Shown: in pieces, positions 20,562-50,257 of the stretch
Numbering within the stretch: the first letter of the stretch is position 1
Layout: each line of letters starts with the position of its first letter
NCBI GenBank assembly: GCA_035544955.1
Contig: DASZZN010000007.1
Location: 62,001 to 126,000 of the forward strand
DNA from: Candidatus Dormiibacterota bacterium
GTDB lineage: Bacteria; Chloroflexota; Dormibacteria; CF-121
DNA: 64,000 nucleotides
Reading direction: 5' to 3'
Notes under the pieces: generated by a model
Databases searched by the model: none
What the model was told of the DNA's origin: nothing
Seen by the model: only the letters and a program-made list of their open reading frames with translations
Translations under genes and position numbers: made by a program

Positions 20562-20924
20562 TCAGTCGGCAGGCGGGCTCGAGCTGACGCCTCGGCGACG
20601 GGAAGCCCTTGCAACCATGCGCAACTGCATGATGCGAGCTCCGCCGAAGGCCAGGACGATGGTCGCGCCGAGGATCACGGCGAATAGCAGCGCAACAGCT
20701 AGTGGCAGATGACCGTGGAAGACCAGGAACGAGATCTCGACGCTCTGTAGGTTTTGAAGGATGAAGACGAGGATTAGCACCAGCGCCAGCAATCCAATGA
20801 CGACCGCGGTCCAGGCTCCGCTGAGGCGGGTGTTTTGCTCGCCCGGATAGGGATCCCGGTCAGGCTGCGCGGTTGGCGGCGGCGGATCGTCCGCGCTCAA
20901 CTCTTGCTCCTCAGCGCGCTCCAT
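20562..20924 (-). CDS. LapA-domain (DUF1049) membrane protein
   Basis: 120 residues: an acidic, proline-rich N-terminus, then two membrane helices with the LapA/DUF1049 core FILQNLQSVEISFLVFHGHLPLAVALLFAVILGA, and a basic tail. In proteobacteria LapA acts in LPS assembly; in other phyla the role is unknown. Its start lies inside the 3' end of the KaiC-like gene (28-bp overlap), so it is translationally coupled to it. Confidence 0.82.
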   Translation of the reverse strand: MERAEEQELSADDPPPPTAQPDRDPYPGEQNTRLSGAWTAVVIGLLALVLILVFILQNLQSVEISFLVFHGHLPLAVALLFAVILGATIVLAFGGARIMQLRMVARASRRRGVSSSPPAD

Positions 20925-22339
20925 CCGAGGACGCCGGTGACCCCCTCCAAGCGGTCCTTGATCGTGAGCCCATGCTTGTCGATCACGTACTCGAACACGC
21001 CCTTGTCGTGGTTGCTGGTTCGCATCTTGATGATGTTGATCGCCCGGCGAAGTTCCGAGCCGATTTCCAGGTAGCGGAGCATGATGACGTTGTGGAAAAG
21101 GAATGACAACCCGCCGATCGGCTCCGTCATCGGTCCGAGGGTGGTCGTTTCGCTAGTGATCAGGACCGAGGCGCCGGCGGCGCGGATCCATCCCACCAGG
21201 CTGCGGGAATAGGCGGGGAACCGCTCCGCCTCGCGGGCCGCAAACACCAGCTCCGCAAGACTGTCGACCACGACCCGACGAACCGAGCCTTTGACCAGCT
21301 CCCGGCGGACGGCGGCCGCGATCGTATCGAGATCCAGCTCGCCAACCGGAACGTAATGGATGGAGAGCTGCCCCGATTCCCGGGCTTTCGCCATGTCCCA
21401 GCCGAAGCTGGCGGCCTTCTTGGCGAGCTGGTCGGCTGTTTCCTGGAAGGAGACGTAGAGACAGCGCTCTCCTGCTTCGAGGCCCTCGGCGGCGAAGCGA
21501 AGCCCGAGGATGGTCTTGCCGGCGCCAGACGGTCCGAGGACCACGGTGGCCTGCCCGGCACGGATCCCCCCACCCATCAACTCGTCGAGCCGGGACACGC
21601 CGCTGGCGACGGGCCCATCCGGTTCGACGGTGCCGTTTGGCGCCAGTGTCTCCAGTCGGGGAAACACCTCGAAGCCCTTCTGCCGGATGCGAAACGAATG
21701 TTTGCCGACCAGGTGGTCGCCGCCGCGCAGCTTCACGACGCGCAGCCAGCGGCGGTCCACCGGCTCATGGGGCTCGTAGGCCAGCTGGATAATGCCGTCC
21801 GCGAGGGAGAACTCGACCCCGCCCTCGATCTCCCGCGGCGTGTATTCACCCACCAACAGCAGGACGGCGTCGGTGTGCGCGACGCGGCTCGCCAGGCTAT
21901 AGAGCGCGGTCCGCAGCTCCCGCTCGCTCACGAAGTCGCGCAGTGCCTTGGCGCTGTCGATCACCACAACCGCCGGCCGGGTCTCAAAGCACTTCCGGAC
22001 CACCTCGGACACGACGGGCTCCAGCCCGTCCTGGCCGGCTTCCTGCACCAGCTCGCCTAGATGGATGAAGTCCACGCTGTGGCCGAGCGCCGCCGGCTTG
22101 AAGAACTCGAAGGGCTCCAGGTGCCGGACGAGCTTGGAGTGCGGCTCGGACAGGGTGGTGTAGTAGAGAGCCTTGTGCTCGGGCGTGGCATTGGCGAAGC
22201 AGATCTGCTGGGCCAGGATGGTTTTGCCCGTGCCGGGGGCCCCGGCCACGATGACGAGCGAGCCCGGCTCGAGTCCGCCGCCGAGAATCACATCGAGGTC
22301 CGCAATGCCGGTTTGCAGTCGGGCCATGTCAGCCGCCAT
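20897..22339 (-). CDS. KaiC-like double-RecA ATPase
   Basis: 480 residues with two KaiC/RecA domains. Walker A sites are GAPGTGKT (about residue 34) and GPSGAGKT (about 268); Walker B-like strands are AVVVIDSAK and RVVVDSLAEL. The second domain ends LRRAINIIKMRTSNHDKGVFEYVI, as in KaiC CII. Aligned by eye to cyanobacterial KaiC, the Ser431 site is Ser but the Thr432 site is Phe, so the clock phosphocycle is probably absent. Co-transcribed with a receiver protein (11-bp overlap) and LapA, suggesting a signalling ATPase controlled by phosphorylation. Confidence 0.9.
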   Translation of the reverse strand: MAADMARLQTGIADLDVILGGGLEPGSLVIVAGAPGTGKTILAQQICFANATPEHKALYYTTLSEPHSKLVRHLEPFEFFKPAALGHSVDFIHLGELVQEAGQDGLEPVVSEVVRKCFETRPAVVVIDSAKALRDFVSERELRTALYSLASRVAHTDAVLLLVGEYTPREIEGGVEFSLADGIIQLAYEPHEPVDRRWLRVVKLRGGDHLVGKHSFRIRQKGFEVFPRLETLAPNGTVEPDGPVASGVSRLDELMGGGIRAGQATVVLGPSGAGKTILGLRFAAEGLEAGERCLYVSFQETADQLAKKAASFGWDMAKARESGQLSIHYVPVGELDLDTIAAAVRRELVKGSVRRVVVDSLAELVFAAREAERFPAYSRSLVGWIRAAGASVLITSETTTLGPMTEPIGGLSFLFHNVIMLRYLEIGSELRRAINIIKMRTSNHDKGVFEYVIDKHGLTIKDRLEGVTGVLGWSALRSKS

Positions 22340-22727
22340 TCTCGCGGATAAGGAGGGCCGCGGCGTGCAAGAGAGCCTGTGGGTCGAATGGTTTTCCTAG
22401 ACGGGTGTTGGCCGCAATGGCCAGTTCGGAGTTGCCGCTGACGACCAGGATCGGGATCGCGGCCGTCTCCGGGTCGCCACGCAGGCGCTCGATGAACTCC
22501 AGGCCGTCCATCATTGGCATCATGACATCCGTGGTCACGAGGTCCGGTTGCCTGGCCTTGACCGACTTCAAGCCGGCCACGCCATGGCGGGCCTCGGTGA
22601 CCTGGTAGCCGGCGCTCTCGAAGATCAGCCGCATCAGGTACCGGACGTCAGGTTCGTCATCGACGATCAGAATCCGTGCTATCGGGTCGTCCCCTTGCCC
22701 CTTCCCTTCATCCTCAGCGAATCTCTC
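22329..22727 (-). CDS. Single-domain response regulator (CheY-like)
   Basis: A receiver domain without output: ARILIVDDEPDVRYLM (acidic pair), VTTDVMMPMMDGLEFI (phospho-Asp), VVSGNSE and GKPFDPQ (Lys). The first ATG (22634) would delete the first strand and the acidic pair, so translation must start upstream, either at TTG 22727 or at a non-AUG codon such as ATA 22682, which follows AAGGGGA by seven bases. It overlaps the KaiC-like gene by 11 bp and probably gates it. No kinase adjoins. Confidence 0.82.
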   Translation of the reverse strand, partial: ERFAEDEGKGQGDDPIARILIVDDEPDVRYLMRLIFESAGYQVTEARHGVAGLKSVKARQPDLVTTDVMMPMMDGLEFIERLRGDPETAAIPILVVSGNSELAIAANTRLGKPFDPQALLHAAALLIRENGG

Positions 22728-23707: not shown

Positions 23708-24784
23708 GTGGACCGAACGGGGACCTTTCCTTCGCGGCTGATCGCCATTTTCGGCTCCGGCGAGACGAGCCCGACAATGACGTCTGTCCATAAGGAGCTG
23801 ACCGCGCGGGTCGGTAACCCACGACCTACCGCCGTCCTCCTCGACACGCCCTTCGGCTTCCAGCCAAACGCCGATGACCTGGTCGCCCGGATCAGCGACT
23901 ACTTCCGGCAGCACGTGGGCCTCGAAATCAAGCTGGCTTCGCTCCGGCACAGCGGGCGGGCCACGGCGCCGGAGCTCGAGCTATTCCTTGCCCAGCTCAG
24001 CGAGGCGAATTACGTGTTCGCGGGTCCGGGGAGCCCTACCTACGCTCTACGCCACTGGCGCGACACCGGCGTGGGTGAGCGATTGATCGAGAAGCTGGCC
24101 CGGGGCGGATGCGTCGCATTCGCCAGCGCGGCGGCGATCGGACTCGGCGCCTTTGCCCTCCCCGTCTATGAGATCTACAAGGTTGGCGATGACCCCTCGT
24201 GGACGCCAGGCCTCGACGTGCTCGGGCAAATCGGCGTTCGATGCGCCGTCATCCCCCACTACAACAACCAGGAAGGCGGCACGCACGACACGCGATTCTG
24301 CTACATGGGTGAGGCACGGCTGCGTGTGCTCGAATCGATGCTGCCCGACGATATCGTCATTCTTGGGGTCGACGAGTACACCGCCTGCATCATCGATCTC
24401 GACGCGCAATCCGTGACCGTGCGAGGTCGCGGAGGAGTCACGGTTCGACGGCGCGGTTCGGAGCGAGTCTGGAAACGGACCACGTTTTCCTTGAGCGAAT
24501 TGCAGGGTGGTTCGTGCGTCGACGGGCTGGTCCCGACCATCGTCGAGATGGAGCGCGTGCTCCAGGGGCGGTTCGCGGATATTGCCAGTACAGATGCACA
24601 GGAGGTGGAGCAGGTGCGCGGGTCAATCGCACCGCTGGTCGAACTGCTCCTCTCGCTGCGTGACGAGGCGAGGCGTGAGCGTCGCTTCAACGACGCCGAT
24701 CGTATTCGCGCCATCCTGGCCGAGTGCGGTGTCGAGCTACAGGACACCCCATCAGGGACCGCATGGGTCCTGACACACGCGTGA
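23708..24784 (+). CDS. Peptidase-S51/cyanophycinase-like protein with a CysRS-type C-terminal tail
   Basis: 358 residues. The first ~290 form a class-I-glutamine-amidotransferase-like fold as in cyanophycinase and peptidase E: LIAIFGSGETSPTM, LLDTPFGFQPNADD, YVFAGPGSPTYALRHW, and GGCVAFASAAAIGLGAF, where the nucleophile-elbow position is Ser-Ala rather than the usual GxSAG. The last ~45 residues (RRERRFNDADRIRAILAECG, then QDTPSGTAW) match the end of cysteinyl-tRNA synthetase, including the copy in this window. Function unknown. Confidence 0.75.
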   Translation: MDRTGTFPSRLIAIFGSGETSPTMTSVHKELTARVGNPRPTAVLLDTPFGFQPNADDLVARISDYFRQHVGLEIKLASLRHSGRATAPELELFLAQLSEANYVFAGPGSPTYALRHWRDTGVGERLIEKLARGGCVAFASAAAIGLGAFALPVYEIYKVGDDPSWTPGLDVLGQIGVRCAVIPHYNNQEGGTHDTRFCYMGEARLRVLESMLPDDIVILGVDEYTACIIDLDAQSVTVRGRGGVTVRRRGSERVWKRTTFSLSELQGGSCVDGLVPTIVEMERVLQGRFADIASTDAQEVEQVRGSIAPLVELLLSLRDEARRERRFNDADRIRAILAECGVELQDTPSGTAWVLTHA

Positions 24785-26079: not shown

Positions 26080-27309
26080 TCAAGCCGGCGCCGGCAGCGC
26101 CTGGGGTGAAGGCAGGGTCAACTCGGGAACAGCCGGCAGCCAGAACGCGACGCTGGTGCCGGCGCCGGGGTGCGATTCCAGCTTCCACCAGCCTCCGGCG
26201 ATCTGGGCTCGCTCGCGCATCTCGGTCAGACCGAGATGGCCCGGGGCCGATCCATTGCCGTTTGGAGTAAAGCCCCTGCCGTCGTCATCGATCTGTACGC
26301 GCCAACCCTTATCGGCGTTTTCCAGGCGCACCAGAATTAGGTGGGCTCCGGCATGTTTCTGGACATTCGCCAGTGCCTCAATCGCGATCCGGTAGAGGAT
26401 GACCCGCGTTTCGGGCGGCGGCTCCGCAGTTAAGTGGTTTTCGAGCTCGACGACCACGCTCCCGCCGGATTGGATCTGCTCGAGATGCGCCTGCAAAGCG
26501 GCCGCCAGCCCTGACCGATCGAGCGCGAGCGGGCGCAGGTTGAACATCAGGTGACGCAACCGGCTGATCGCTCCCTGGAACGCGTCTTCCAGCCTGTCGA
26601 GAGCCTCGACCTCAGCGTCGGACCTCAACCGTTTGCGTAATTGCTGGAGGCGCAGGCCGGCAGCCGCCATGGCCTGGATGCTGTCGTCGTGGATATCGGA
26701 GGCGATCCGCAATCGTTCCGTCTCCTGGGCGCGCACGAGGTGGACGAGCAGTTCCTCTCGGTCGTGTCCGGCTTTGCGGACCAACTCGAGCAGCGCCAGC
26801 TCGGTCTTCTTCCGTTCGCTGACATCCGCAAGAAGCGCCCTAAAGCAAGCCGTGGCCAGATCGGTCGGCATGCTGAGCTGCGACCGCGCCGCGCGGTGGA
26901 TGGCTTCAACGATTTCTCGGTCGGCTGCCCCCTTCACCAGGTACCCGGACGCGCCCAACTGCAGCATTTCGGACACGCTTTCCATGTCCTCGCGGGCTGA
27001 GAACGCCAGATACCGTGTTGCCGGGGCGCGCACCGCAATCTCGCGCGCCGCCCTTGGGCCACCGCCTCCTGGCATACGCACGTCAAGTAGAGCCACGCGC
27101 GGTCGCTCGCGAGCAGCGATCTCGATCGCTTCATCCGCCGTCGCCGCCACCTCTACCAGTTTGATGCTGGATTCCTCGGAGAGGAGGTCCGCGAGCGCTT
27201 CGCGGATCGCCGCGTCATCATCGGCGATAAGGACCGATACGGTCCGCTCCATATCCCGCGCGACGGCGCTCACCGAGGGTCCTTGCGAATCTCGGGCGGA
27301 GTTAGGCAC
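26080..27309 (-). CDS. Receiver-histidine kinase hybrid (REC-HisKA_3-HATPase)
   Basis: 409 residues. The N-terminal receiver (about 25-145) has SVLIADDDAAIREAL, LLDVRMPGGGG, LAFSAREDM and YLVKGAADR, all phospho-site residues kept. A short linker leads to a NarL-partner kinase core: ERLRIASDIHDDSIQAMAA (phospho-His), RHLMFNLRPLALD, YRIAIEALANVQKHAG (N-box) and QIDDDGRGFTP (G1). So a receiver controls its own kinase, opposite to the usual order. GTG 27309 or ATG 27252 could be the start. It heads no operon; the dual-receiver gene lies just upstream. Confidence 0.9.
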   Translation of the reverse strand: MPNSARDSQGPSVSAVARDMERTVSVLIADDDAAIREALADLLSEESSIKLVEVAATADEAIEIAARERPRVALLDVRMPGGGGPRAAREIAVRAPATRYLAFSAREDMESVSEMLQLGASGYLVKGAADREIVEAIHRAARSQLSMPTDLATACFRALLADVSERKKTELALLELVRKAGHDREELLVHLVRAQETERLRIASDIHDDSIQAMAAAGLRLQQLRKRLRSDAEVEALDRLEDAFQGAISRLRHLMFNLRPLALDRSGLAAALQAHLEQIQSGGSVVVELENHLTAEPPPETRVILYRIAIEALANVQKHAGAHLILVRLENADKGWRVQIDDDGRGFTPNGNGSAPGHLGLTEMRERAQIAGGWWKLESHPGAGTSVAFWLPAVPELTLPSPQALPAPA

Positions 27310-27315
27310 CTCTGC

Positions 27316-27474
27316 CTACAGGCCGTCGGGTTGGATCTTTCGCCGGATCTGGAATAGCAGGCCGCTGGACCGGCGGCGCCGGAAGCCGGTCATTGTGCGG
27401 TCGCTGGAGATGCTCGCGACGGCTGCAAGACGTTTCTGCAGTACTTCCTCATCACTGGGGTTATCGCCCGGCAT
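27316..27474 (-). CDS. Small basic protein between the signalling genes
   Basis: 52 residues from ATG 27474, with AGGAG ten bases upstream: MPGDNPSDEEVLQKRLAAVA, then GFRRRRSSGLLFQIRRKIQPDGL. It overlaps the dual-receiver stop region only slightly upstream and ends just before the hybrid kinase start. Acidic N-terminal and basic C-terminal halves. No known family. It may be a small adaptor or a chance frame. Confidence 0.4.
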   Translation of the reverse strand: MPGDNPSDEEVLQKRLAAVASISSDRTMTGFRRRRSSGLLFQIRRKIQPDGL

Positions 27475-27491
27475 CGCCGGCGTATCTCCTA

Positions 27492-28427
27492 TCACGCCGC
27501 GGCCCATGGTCCGGATCGCCCGGGACGAGGCCAGGTCGTCAGCGCATGTAGCGCGTCGGCCCCGATCTCGAGGACGGTATGCCCTCTGGCGCACGATCGA
27601 ATGTTGTTGGTCAATTCCTGGCTACCGAAGCCCTTAACGATGTAGCCTGCGGCGCCCCCACGAAGCATGGCGACCACCTCGTCCGGGTCATCGCTCGCCG
27701 AGAAGGCGAGGATGCGTGTGCGCGGGGATACACGCTCCAGCTCGAAGGCAACCCGCTCTCCCCCCCACTCGGGCATCCGAACGTCGACCAGAGCGACGTC
27801 CGGTTGCATCGAAGCCGCCACCGTAGTGGCGTCGTCGAGGTTCGTGGCGGTGCCGACCAATCGCAGACCGGCCTCTTCGCTGATCAGCTCGCCGACTGCT
27901 TGCACAACGGCAAGATCATCGTCGACCGCCATAACACGAACCGGACTCTCGCCCAGCATCGAGCTCAACTCCTTATCGACAACCAGTCCCTGGATGACGT
28001 AGCGTCCTAGCTCAGGAGAAAGCACGGCGCGACCTCGCGTGACCTGGAGGATGCCACTCACGATCCGCGTGGGTCGGGTCCCCTTGAGCAGGTAGCCGCT
28101 CGCCCCGGCGCGCAGCATCGCGAGCACGGCGTCCTTGTCACGACGCACAGAAAAGGCCAGCATGCGGGTCTGCGGACAGGCCACGCGGATCCCATTCGCG
28201 GCTTCGATGCCCCCGCCCGGCATGTTCATGTCGAGCAGCGCCACGTCGGGACGAAACGAGCCGGCCAGTTCGATCGCGGACTCCGCGCTGGTGGCCAGGC
28301 CACTGACCACCATGCCTGGCGAGCTGTTGATGACGTCCGCCAGACCGGATCGGACCACCGGACTATCGTCGGCGACCAGCACGGTTTGCGAATGCCGTCG
28401 CCCTCCGTCTCTGGCGACCCCCAGCAT
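27492..28427 (-). CDS. Dual-receiver response regulator without output domain
   Basis: Two complete receiver domains in tandem. The first has TVLVADDSPVVRSGL, LLDMNMPGGG, AFSVRRD and YLLKGTRP; the second, after a ~45-residue linker, has RVMAVDDDLAVVQAV, LVDVRMPEWGG, AFSASDDP and YIVKGFGSQ. There is no DNA-binding or enzymatic output. ATG 28427 sits just before the first strand; ATG 28532 inside the preceding kinase gene is possible. It is probably a phosphate sink or relay between the adjacent kinases and the separate HTH proteins. Confidence 0.85.
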   Translation of the reverse strand: MLGVARDGGRRHSQTVLVADDSPVVRSGLADVINSSPGMVVSGLATSAESAIELAGSFRPDVALLDMNMPGGGIEAANGIRVACPQTRMLAFSVRRDKDAVLAMLRAGASGYLLKGTRPTRIVSGILQVTRGRAVLSPELGRYVIQGLVVDKELSSMLGESPVRVMAVDDDLAVVQAVGELISEEAGLRLVGTATNLDDATTVAASMQPDVALVDVRMPEWGGERVAFELERVSPRTRILAFSASDDPDEVVAMLRGGAAGYIVKGFGSQELTNNIRSCARGHTVLEIGADALHALTTWPRPGRSGPWAAA

Positions 28428-28503
28428 CAGTCGAGGGTAACGTGGACGCAAACGCCAATCCACTGACGAATGTGGGGACTGCGACCTATCTAATTGCGGG
28501 AGG

Positions 28504-29427
28504 TCAGGTGGCGGCGGACTTGTTCGGCTCACTCAGGGGATCCTCTGGAATCCAGGCCCGCACACGGTGCTGGTCGCCGCTGGAGAGTTCGATCTGTGCC
28601 CAGCCACCGGCGAGACGGGCACGCTCCCGAAGCAGTCCGTTTCCAGCCGTACCGGCGCCATCGTGGACGAGGCGCACCATCCAGCCCTGGTCCTCGTCGT
28701 CGAGGTCCACCCTGATCACGCCAATGCCGTCTGAGCAGGCGGCGCCTTTCACGGCCTCCTCGACGATCCGGTAGAGGAGCATGCGGCGACCGGTCGGCGG
28801 GTCACGCTCGAGCCGCGTTTGGACCTCGAACGCTACGCCAGTCTCGCCTTGGACACCTTCGAGCAGCTCGCGAACCGCGGCCGCGATCCCCGAACCCTCG
28901 AGCGCCGCCGGGCGAAGTTCGAACATCAGCTTCCGCAGACGCACCATCGTCAGGTCGAGGAGCTCCTCCAGGGCGGAGACGATCGCAAGCTGCCCCGGGT
29001 CATGCAGAGTGAGCCGAAGGAGCTGCACCCGGAGGCTGGCGGCGGTAACTGCCTGCAGGCTGTCGTCGTGGATGTCGTCCGCGATTCGTTTACGCTCCTG
29101 TTCCAGCGCTCTGAGGATCCGCTCCTCCGCGTGCCAACGGTCAGTGAGGTCGCGCGCCGCGACGAGCCCGACCGCGCCGTGTGCGGTCTTTAGCGGCGTC
29201 GTGCGGAAGTCAACCGGAAATCGGACGCCATCCTTTCGGCGGCCGACCACTTCGAGGCGCTGCGGCTTGAGCGCGCAGCCCCGCATCCAATCCACGCTCG
29301 GGGTCGCCCCAGGCTGGAGCACCATGACCAGTCCCCGTCCAATACAGTCATCGGCCCCGTAGCCGAATAGATCCAGCCAGGGACCGTTGATGCGGCGCAT
29401 GTTGCCGTCAACATCGGTGATGGCCAT
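28504..29427 (-). CDS. PAS-HisKA_3 histidine kinase with degenerate ATPase domain
   Basis: PAS domain first (AITDVDGNMRRINGPW, GRRKDGVRFPVDFRTTPL), then phospho-His helix ERKRIADDIHDDSLQAVTAA and MVRLRKLMFELRPAALEG. In the ATPase domain the N-box reads RIVEEAVKGAACSDG, where the Mg-binding Asn is Gly, and the G1 box is VHDGAGT. ATP binding is therefore doubtful, while the His is intact. The PAS helix LLADLIETVPDAM lies upstream of ATG 29427 in frame without ATG/GTG/TTG, so the start may be a non-AUG codon (ATC 29469, with GAGGG six bases upstream). Confidence 0.82.
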   Translation of the reverse strand: MAITDVDGNMRRINGPWLDLFGYGADDCIGRGLVMVLQPGATPSVDWMRGCALKPQRLEVVGRRKDGVRFPVDFRTTPLKTAHGAVGLVAARDLTDRWHAEERILRALEQERKRIADDIHDDSLQAVTAASLRVQLLRLTLHDPGQLAIVSALEELLDLTMVRLRKLMFELRPAALEGSGIAAAVRELLEGVQGETGVAFEVQTRLERDPPTGRRMLLYRIVEEAVKGAACSDGIGVIRVDLDDEDQGWMVRLVHDGAGTAGNGLLRERARLAGGWAQIELSSGDQHRVRAWIPEDPLSEPNKSAAT

Positions 29428-48880: not shown

Positions 48881-50257
48881 CTACCGGATCCGTTTCCAGC
48901 GGGTGCCGTCCTTGGTGTCGTCCAGCTGGATTCCCATCGCAAGCAGCTGTTTGCGGATCTCGTCCGAGCGGGCAAAGTCGCGCCGCTCCCTGGCTATCCG
49001 CCGCTCGGCGATTAGCTTGTCGACGTCAGCATCGACGGCCTCGGGGAAGTCGATGACATCGAGGATGCCGTTCGCATGGCGGAGTAGCGCCATCGCGCCG
49101 GCGCGCTCCTCCGACGTCGCCTTTCCCGACTCGAGCCGTGGGTTGAAGGCCTTGATGAATTCGAAGAGATGGCCGACGGCCGCCGGCAGATTGAGGTCGT
49201 CGATGAGAGCCTCATCCCAGCGGCTTCGAATCTCGCCAGTCGGTTCCGCCTCCGCCACGCTCCCAAGCCGCACGGCGAACTCATCCAGGCGCTTGACTGA
49301 ACTGTCCGCCGCCTTGAGCAGCTCGGGCGAAAAGGCCAGCGGGCTCCGATAGTGGGCTCCCGTCAGTAGTGCATATCGGATGGCGCGTGGCGCATATCCC
49401 TCGGCTAGCAGATCGCGAACCGTGGAAAAGTTCTTGAGGCGTTTCGACATCTTTTCGCCGGTCGAGTCCTGCAGGTGTTGCGCGTGCAGCCAGTAGCGTA
49501 CAAACGGCTTTCCGGTGGCGCCCTCGCTCTGCGCGATCTCGTCCTCGTGGTGGGGAAAGATCAGGTCGATCCCGCCGGCGTGAATGTCGAGCGACTCCCC
49601 CAGGTACTGCATGCTCATCGCGGAGCATTCGATGTGCCAGCCGGGCCGTCCCGCGCCCAGCGGCGTTTCCCAGGATTGCTCCCCGGGCTTGCGCGCCTTC
49701 CAGAGGGCGAAGTCCCTGGGATCGTCCTTGCCGTATTCATCGACATCGACCCGCGCACCCGCCTTGAGGCCACTGACATCGAGGTGGGCCAGGGCGCCGT
49801 AGCGAGGAAAGGTCGAAATCCGAAAGTACGTCGACCCGTCGGCGACATACGTGTGGCCGTTCTCGGTGAGGCGTTCGATCAGCGACACCATCTCGAAAAT
49901 GTGCTGCGTCGCGCGCGGGTAGTGCTCGGCCCGCCGGATCCGCAGCGTGTCGAGGTCCTCGAAAAAGGCCTCGATGTACTGCTCAGTGAAATCGTCGATC
50001 GTCTGGCCGCGCTCCGCGGACTTCTTGATGATGCGGTCCTCGACATCGGTCAGGTTCATCACCTGGGTGACCCGGTACCCCTGTTGCAGGAACACGCGGC
50101 GCAGCAGGTCCTCGAAGAGAAAGGTGCGGAAGTTGCCGATGTGTGAGTAGTCGTGGACAGTCGGGCCGCAGGTATACATCCGGACGTGGCCTGGCTCGAT
50201 CGAGACGAACTCTTCCACCTGGCCGCTCATCGTGTTGTGCAGGCGCAGCGGCGTCAT
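48881..50257 (-). CDS. cysS: Cysteinyl-tRNA synthetase
   Basis: 458 residues. TCGPTVHDYSHIGNFRTFLF contains the zinc Cys and the HIGN motif, and GEKMSKRLKNFSTVRDLLAE the KMSKS loop. WHIECSAMSMQYLG and DLIFPHHEDEIAQSE hold further zinc and catalytic residues. The C-terminus is ERRDFARSDEIRKQLLAMGI, ending DGTRWKR, the same tail found on the S51-like protein at 23708. It overlaps the ispF stop by 4 bp. Complete by length. Confidence 0.97.
   Translation of the reverse strand: MTPLRLHNTMSGQVEEFVSIEPGHVRMYTCGPTVHDYSHIGNFRTFLFEDLLRRVFLQQGYRVTQVMNLTDVEDRIIKKSAERGQTIDDFTEQYIEAFFEDLDTLRIRRAEHYPRATQHIFEMVSLIERLTENGHTYVADGSTYFRISTFPRYGALAHLDVSGLKAGARVDVDEYGKDDPRDFALWKARKPGEQSWETPLGAGRPGWHIECSAMSMQYLGESLDIHAGGIDLIFPHHEDEIAQSEGATGKPFVRYWLHAQHLQDSTGEKMSKRLKNFSTVRDLLAEGYAPRAIRYALLTGAHYRSPLAFSPELLKAADSSVKRLDEFAVRLGSVAEAEPTGEIRSRWDEALIDDLNLPAAVGHLFEFIKAFNPRLESGKATSEERAGAMALLRHANGILDVIDFPEAVDADVDKLIAERRIARERRDFARSDEIRKQLLAMGIQLDDTKDGTRWKRIR

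Follow-up and report, generated by a model that had tools for sequence, protein, structure and literature searches.

The open reading frame at positions 23708 to 24784 of the 64,000-nucleotide stretch of DNA analysed here (the window) encodes a protein in which a predicted hydrolase domain of the S51 fold is followed by a C-terminal domain of the type found at the end of cysteinyl-tRNA synthetase (CysRS). A SnoaL-like open reading frame lies upstream of this gene, hereafter S51-CysS_C, on the same strand, and the CysRS gene of the same genome is also located within the window. The features considered in what follows are listed here.

23708..24784, forward strand: S51-CysS_C protein, 358 aa, with a GTG start that matches nearest relatives
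23729..24475, forward strand: S51-fold (cyanophycinase/peptidase E-like) hydrolase domain, predicted, residues 8-256
24125..24127, forward strand: Ser140, nucleophile (predicted) of the A-S-A-A elbow; pairs with the Ser of GCSAGA in 6nqc
24257..24259, forward strand: His184, predicted catalytic histidine (PHxNNxEGG); pairs with the IPHFN His of 6nqc
24374..24376, forward strand: Glu223, predicted third residue of the triad (GVDEYT); pairs with GIDEVT of 6nqc
24476..24613, forward strand: linker, shortened in the window copy
24614..24772, forward strand: CysS_C-type anticodon-binding domain, predicted, residues 303-355
24659..24700, forward strand: R318, R322, F327 and D331, equivalent to R423, R427, W432 and D436 of Escherichia coli CysRS
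48881..50257, reverse strand: CysRS of the same genome, the other place with the tail
48884..49024, reverse strand: C-terminal CysS_C part of this CysRS, used for comparison

The gene is under purifying selection, with dN well below dS in both of its parts: in comparisons with four sibling genes, dN was 0.13-0.15 and dS 0.72-0.96 over residues 1-255, and the corresponding values for the tail were 0.18-0.24 and 0.37-1.7. Elsewhere in the window, a KaiC/RadA-like two-domain ATPase is encoded on the reverse strand (20897-22339) beside a short response regulator (22329-22634), and response-regulator and histidine-kinase-like open reading frames are found near this ATPase at 26080-29427, all of these being assigned by eye.

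The S51-like hydrolase domain

An AlphaFold2 model of the window protein, built from a 52-sequence alignment, has a pLDDT of 90 and a pTM of 0.76. Its top match in Foldseek is 6nqc (E 1.7e-14), followed by the cyanophycinase 3en0 and the peptidase E 6a4r, in agreement with the cyanophycinase/peptidase-E-like domain proposed for this gene in an earlier note on this DNA. By sequence, the window protein matches 6nqc at E 9e-4, and the model of a relative with a longer linker (L042, see below) superimposes on 6nqc over 234 residues (VIA-align, Z 27.0, rmsd 2.6). Judging from these models, the N-terminal domain is of the S51 fold. Scores against existing sequence profiles are low. With Pfam PF03575, the window copy stays below the cut-off (E 0.0028, 17.8 bits for a gathering threshold of 23.9), which L042 alone passes among 10 relatives scanned (28.8 bits). 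The cyanophycinase model TIGR02069 gives 17 bits for the window copy, its cut-off being 126.6, and NCBIfam cyanophycinase and PepE scores lie far under their cut-offs wherever a match occurs.

All 52 aligned members share the predicted triad S140, H184 and E223, and equally invariant among them are GSGE (16-19), F51, GPGSP (106-110), Y154-E155, Y157-K158, G160, N187, G190, D194-T195, G201, R204, G220 and G240. The pocket motifs typical of the family are GSGET, TPxGFQ/E, GPGSPxY, PVYEIYKVG and NNxEGGxxDT. The nucleophile elbow, which the earlier note had already recognised as altered, reads A-S-A-A, in place of the G[CS]SAGA found in 10 of 10 S51 paralogs of other branches from related genomes, all of which are without VYEIYKVG. 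The GxSAG motif, described as highly conserved in family S51 (PMC11078827), is absent from this elbow, and the domain is for this reason called S51-like here. Since A-S-A-A keeps small residues on either side of the serine, the domain is probably active, with a different substrate. The same genome encodes a further S51 protein (G000:C12:37666-38265, L168), whose elbow reads GTSAGA.

A tail shared with cysteinyl-tRNA synthetase

When the window protein was compared with its own 3.67-Mb genome (E up to 1), two places matched, namely the gene itself and the window CysRS, with 41% identity over residues 311-354 (E 0.012). The first of these frames (23708-24784) contains FNDADRIRAILAECG and DTPSGTAW, the second (48881-50257, reverse strand) FARSDEIRKQLLAMG and DTKDGTRW. 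Residues 293-354 match positions 405-464 of the 466 in the NCBIfam cysS model TIGR00435 (E 2.8e-6), four solved CysRS sequences are matched at E 1e-4 to 0.15, and the best match of the family profile to CysRS chains of the PDB has an E value of 1.2e-12. Alignment of S51-protein tails with CysRS tails by hhalign gave a probability of 99.6 and E 4e-24 for the pair. With Pfam CysS_C, the window copy is under the cut-off (E 0.019, 15.5 of 23 bits), which is passed by 6 of 10 relatives scanned (best E 2.8e-10). The tail had been described in the earlier note as a stretch of about 45 residues matching the end of CysRS, including the copy in this window; the match itself holds and is significant beyond a short helix, and its length is corrected to about 60 residues. 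The class I catalytic domain (tRNA-synt_1e) gave no match, at E 10 for the window copy and at E 1 for 10 relatives.

In the structure of CysRS with tRNACys (PDB 1u0b), the C-terminal domain comprises residues 403-461; Arg427 and Asp436 are described as forming hydrogen bonds with G34 of the tRNA, Trp432 as stacking on it, and Arg423 and Asp436 as touching it via water (PMC12684709). A gapless alignment (offset 105) places R423, R427, W432 and D436 of the E. coli enzyme on R318, R322, F327 and D331 of the window protein. Counted over an 81-row family alignment with gapped rows omitted, R318 and R322 are each found in 78/78 rows, F, W or Y at the position of F327 in 78/78, and D331, R334 and D346 in 76/76 each. 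Every one of the 119 complete S51 tails shows the six-residue pattern, as do 72 of the 73 CysRS tails that are complete; truncated tails, four from S51 proteins and one from CysRS, are not counted. The pattern also occurs in 6 of the 8 remaining complete tails, a set that includes two split S51 genes (L011 and L196). The tails were gathered with the family profile, which biases these counts toward conserved ones. Among 5284 open reading frames without the tail, the pattern occurs once, and its four-residue G34 part alone in 39. Chance similarity of the tail to CysRS was rejected on the strength of the TIGR00435, PDB and hhalign matches together with this pattern.

By profile match and by the G34-contacting residues, the tail of the S51-CysS_C family is, at the level of sequence, a CysS_C anticodon-binding domain. 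Because the pattern is equally strict in CysRS, the needs of folding and of tRNA reading leave the same trace in these counts, which demonstrate retention and not binding. An open reading frame of the window genome that resembles CysRS (G000:C34:112984-114060, L188), and which we take to be MshC-like, is without the anticodon domain; it is 43% identical to residues 4-367 of the window CysRS. Likewise, CysRS* of Desulfobacterales is described as being without the C-terminal domain (PMC9437257). That CysRS-like proteins with another job do without this domain argues for its being retained for the sake of the tRNA.

The earlier note had suggested that the tail may recruit either RNA or a thiol-related substrate. 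The idea of RNA recruitment is supported by the retained G34-contacting residues. The thiol-related substrate finds no support, because the CysRS segment concerned reads the anticodon and not cysteine; moreover, mycothiol or cysteine genes other than cysS do not recur beside the compared loci. cysS itself lies near 3 of 56 (L060, L071 and L073), in flanks that extended to at most 6 kb and less where a contig ended.

Forms, spread and neighbours of the family

Long and short forms can be distinguished among 54 members taken from one contig scan. The S51 domain and the tail are 99-142 residues apart in 34 of these and 39-70 residues apart in 19; the remaining one (L038) is a long form truncated by the contig end. 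The window copy, with 55 aa between the alignment marks as against 99-121 in its six nearest relatives, clusters with long-form genes, much of the linker region having been lost in frame. In its model, block means of pLDDT over residues 271-300 of the linker are 52-68. The model of the long form L042 (pLDDT 90, block means 42-63 over residues 271-290) features three extra helices, after which the tail domain follows with two helices and two strands. In Foldseek, 1u0b_B came first after 20 S51 chains for this model (E 1.5e-3, 129 columns, 26% identity), and was the only CysRS among the 50 matches listed. Superposition of residues 289-413 on CysRS residues 332-461 by VIA-align gave Z 8.1 over 117 residues with an rmsd of 15.8 A, the latter indicating parts that are positioned differently, and a Z under about 13 being also compatible with a common helical-bundle arrangement. 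By sequence, the long-form region without the tail gave no significant match to CysRS (hhalign, probability 6%, E 0.006). On the basis of the model, the long form likely includes the CysRS helical bundle, and the capture may have included the C-terminal half of CysRS.

The spacing bears on where the hydrolase could reach. As only 39-70 residues join the two domains in short forms, the enzyme might act on the anticodon loop itself and free a modified tRNACys base of its acyl or carbamoyl-type group. The CysRS-like helical region of the long form suggests instead a longer reach along the tRNA, and tRNACys is not known to us to carry a modification of this kind. Action on the loop is, in our judgement, highly improbable.

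The contig scan yielded 56 loci, with titles from Chloroflexi, Actinobacteria and deltaproteobacterial groups, among which the labels Rokubacteria, Bifidobacterium and Dormiibacterota are possible binning errors. The family profile was also run against whole genomes. Members were detected in 71 of the 301 genomes examined from the window's phylum (Chloroflexota) and in 15 of 118 from the phylum to which the Desulfobacteraceae genome G186 belongs. For the phylum of the Acidimicrobiaceae genome G185, taken as Actinomycetota, the count is 13 of 198; the matches counted there have E values of 1e-122 or lower, and the one following stands at 4e-19. A tblastn search against plasmids retrieved four further members, all with the tail, from Streptomyces sp. 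NBC_01237, Streptomyces sp. CA-256286, Streptomycetaceae bacterium NBC_01309 and Nonomuraea gerenzanensis. Two annotated Streptomycetaceae records name the family member "hypothetical protein". The fusion is a family found across several bacterial phyla and not a one-off; a recent gene fusion or an assembly artefact was rejected, since the same joint is seen in many genomes of several phyla. No description of an S51-CysS_C fusion was found in the open-licence PMC literature among the matches listed, and the available portions of PMC8762117 and PMC2922099 contain nothing on it. It is a combination of two known domains that is undescribed among these literature matches.

The tail is widespread in the family. 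All 13 matches in the phylum of G185 extend to at least position 408 of the 412 in the profile; 13 of the 15 in the phylum of G186 extend to at least 407, and the remaining two (L056 and L221) proved to be tailed when read. In the window's phylum, the tail is present in 64 of 71 members (20 rows extending to at least profile position 382, the window copy, and others inspected in sets of 13, 15 and 15). The other seven (G601, G559, G608, G615, G624, G547 and G167) have a stop directly after the S51 domain and retain the triad and most of the pocket motifs; an obligatory tail was accordingly dropped as a description of the family. In the best tree, tailless members are found at three places within tailed groups, most simply explained by three losses; these rest on the best tree, the well-supported (starred) branches forcing one change only. 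In the first search of relatives, an apparent lack of the whole tail was due to contig ends (G040, G064, G103), frame changes (G014, G074) or a tail below threshold (G077).

In a tree of the tails (51 columns, poorly resolved, bootstrap not settled), the tail of the window protein clusters with S51 tails and not with the window CysRS, which likewise speaks against a recent fusion or an artefact. Beside two rows of CysRS, one group of this tree contains 66 of 81 S51 tails and a row that carries the label GT2 but is in reality the split S51 gene L011. The other 15 S51 tails, which without exception come from the window's phylum, share a group with 8 CysRS and 6 GT2 tails. Two captures, convergence or poor resolution may each explain this split.

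Related genomes carry other arrangements of the same parts. A CysS_C-type domain precedes a GT2 glycosyltransferase-like domain at six loci of the window's phylum (L148, L149, L150, L152, L154 and L155). Pfam detected both domains in L148, with GT2 just under the cut-off, and in L150, and GT2 only in L154; for L149, L152 and L155 the GT2 part was judged by eye. In all six, the tail was recognised with the family profile. In L156 (by Pfam) and in L158 and L198 (by eye), one reading frame encodes CysRS and, after it, a GT2-like domain. Frames of 780-800 aa with a cysteine synthase-like start, assigned by eye, and a CysRS end are present in G186 and G187 (L171 and L172), and these two genomes also carry a CysRS-sized frame of 490-497 aa with CysS_C and a gene for an S51 protein with the tail. 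Among relatives G000-G060, the roughly 28 whose genomes encode two full CysRS (families f3/f4) seem to lack an S51-tail gene and most with a single CysRS carry one, a contrast that is confounded by kinship.

The commonest neighbour of the gene is an alpha/beta hydrolase. At 17 of 54 loci, spread over several lineages, it is encoded immediately upstream in the same orientation, with a one-base overlap in 10 of these (three of the 57 locus sets were skipped, the filter for open reading frames having dropped the S51-CysS_C gene). These hydrolases are 31-42% identical to that of L058, and the one at L087 is split in two reading frames. An S9 peptidase follows downstream in three related loci (L072, L079 and L082; Pfam was applied to L072 only).

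With such neighbours, hydrolysis of small molecules or peptides fits as well. The S51 domain could cleave a small peptide, amide or ester along with the neighbouring alpha/beta hydrolase; the tail would then be a leftover module for structure, dimer formation or loose RNA binding, without choosing any one tRNA. Indeed, the seven tailless members keep their active site, so that catalysis does not always depend on the tail, and together with the alpha/beta hydrolase neighbour they suggest that the substrate may also be met without tRNA. Nevertheless, the alpha/beta hydrolase gene is not adjacent in 37 of the 54 loci, and retention of the G34-contacting set in 119/119 tails exceeds what a generic module would need. 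We regard this alternative as possible and somewhat unlikely.

No biosynthetic or regulatory neighbours recur in the compared loci, and the neighbourhood yields no pathway. This bears on two further alternatives. According to the first, the enzyme would dock on tRNACys as a guard, cleaving aminoacyl-adenylate-like inhibitors or stray adenylates near CysRS and tRNACys as the S51 enzyme MccG does with a mimic of aspartyl-adenylate (PMC9239234). The absence of a recurring biosynthetic gene, and pocket motifs (VYEIYKVG, NNxEGG) unlike those of the other S51 proteins compared, make such a role improbable. According to the second, binding of uncharged tRNACys to the tail would toggle the hydrolase and so make some degradative or regulatory step depend on the supply of cysteine. 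The conservation of both anticodon domain and triad and the flexible linker of the long model (block means 42-63 over 271-290) would suit a sensor of this kind; nevertheless, charged and uncharged tRNA are not distinguishable by the anticodon domain alone, and the loci have no recurring regulatory or cysteine-metabolism gene, so that there is, in our view, little probability of this either. Finally, neither the window copy nor L042 had a PADLOC match at E 0.1, and a defence system was therefore rejected as a reading.

A possible hydrolase of tRNACys and its known counterparts

The interpretation that we prefer, at a probability of roughly 0.38, is that of an S51-fold serine hydrolase docked on tRNACys via its CysRS-derived domain. 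At the level of sequence, docking is supported by the homology of the tail to CysRS and the conservation of the residues that contact G34. Counting against this interpretation are the seven tailless members, the alpha/beta hydrolase and S9 peptidase neighbours and the occurrence of cysS in the flanks of 3 of 56 loci only. The tail would hold the anticodon loop of tRNACys and read G34 of the GCA anticodon through the same set of two arginines, an aromatic residue and an aspartate as CysRS, and the S51 domain (Ser140-His184-Glu223) would then hydrolyse an acyl bond. The likeliest such bond would be the ester that links an aminoacyl (or modified aminoacyl) group to the 3' end of the tRNA, cleaved as a clean-up or editing step; an acyl-ester substrate is suggested by the precedents of MccG and ThrRS-ed. 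That the protein is an editor or recycler removing an acyl group from tRNACys(GCA), which it would find by the anticodon, is a tentative proposal that we hold to be rather doubtful. Its extension to a dedicated acyl-tRNACys editor or recycler in part of the Chloroflexota, Actinomycetota (Streptomyces included) and Desulfobacterota is offered with the same reserve. We infer tRNA binding, catalysis and the acyl-tRNA substrate alike, and the substrate is the weakest of these steps.

If this interpretation is correct, the family would represent a tRNA quality-control or tRNA-dependent enzyme of a new class. To our knowledge, there is no editor dedicated to tRNACys, and we know of no RNA-guided S51 enzyme. 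With regard to aminoacyl-tRNA editing on tRNACys, the available part of PMC11295145 mentions the unselective in-vitro activity of YbaK alone. The occurrence of members in Streptomycetaceae makes the family testable in a cultured actinomycete. On a wider view, our findings suggest that the anticodon module of CysRS has been reused, both behind a hydrolase domain and, in genomes of the window's phylum, before GT2 glycosyltransferase domains.

Compared with known systems, the tail is homologous to and colinear with the C-terminal domain of CysRS (CysS_C PF23493; residues 403-461 of the E. coli enzyme in 1u0b), of which it keeps the four G34-contacting residues, the aromatic one as F, W or Y. Unlike CysRS, the family is devoid of a class I catalytic domain and has the S51 domain in its place. 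MccG, which cleaves processed microcin C, an aminoacyl-nucleotide, has the S51 fold in common with the family, and no anticodon domain is mentioned for it in the available part of PMC9239234. With S51 peptidases such as peptidase E, cyanophycinase and 6nqc, the family shares the predicted fold and the Ser-His-Glu arrangement, and it differs from them in having A-S-A-A for GxSAG, pocket motifs of its own and the CysRS tail. ThrRS-ed and YbaK possess hydrolase folds other than S51. Archaeal ThrRS-ed, a separate editing enzyme, is drawn with a hydrolytic and an anticodon-binding domain (PMC11295145), and this is also the combination predicted for the S51-CysS_C family. YbaK is described as removing Cys from tRNA, in vitro also from tRNACys, without robust tRNA selectivity (PMC11295145), whereas the S51-CysS_C family would choose tRNACys by its anticodon.
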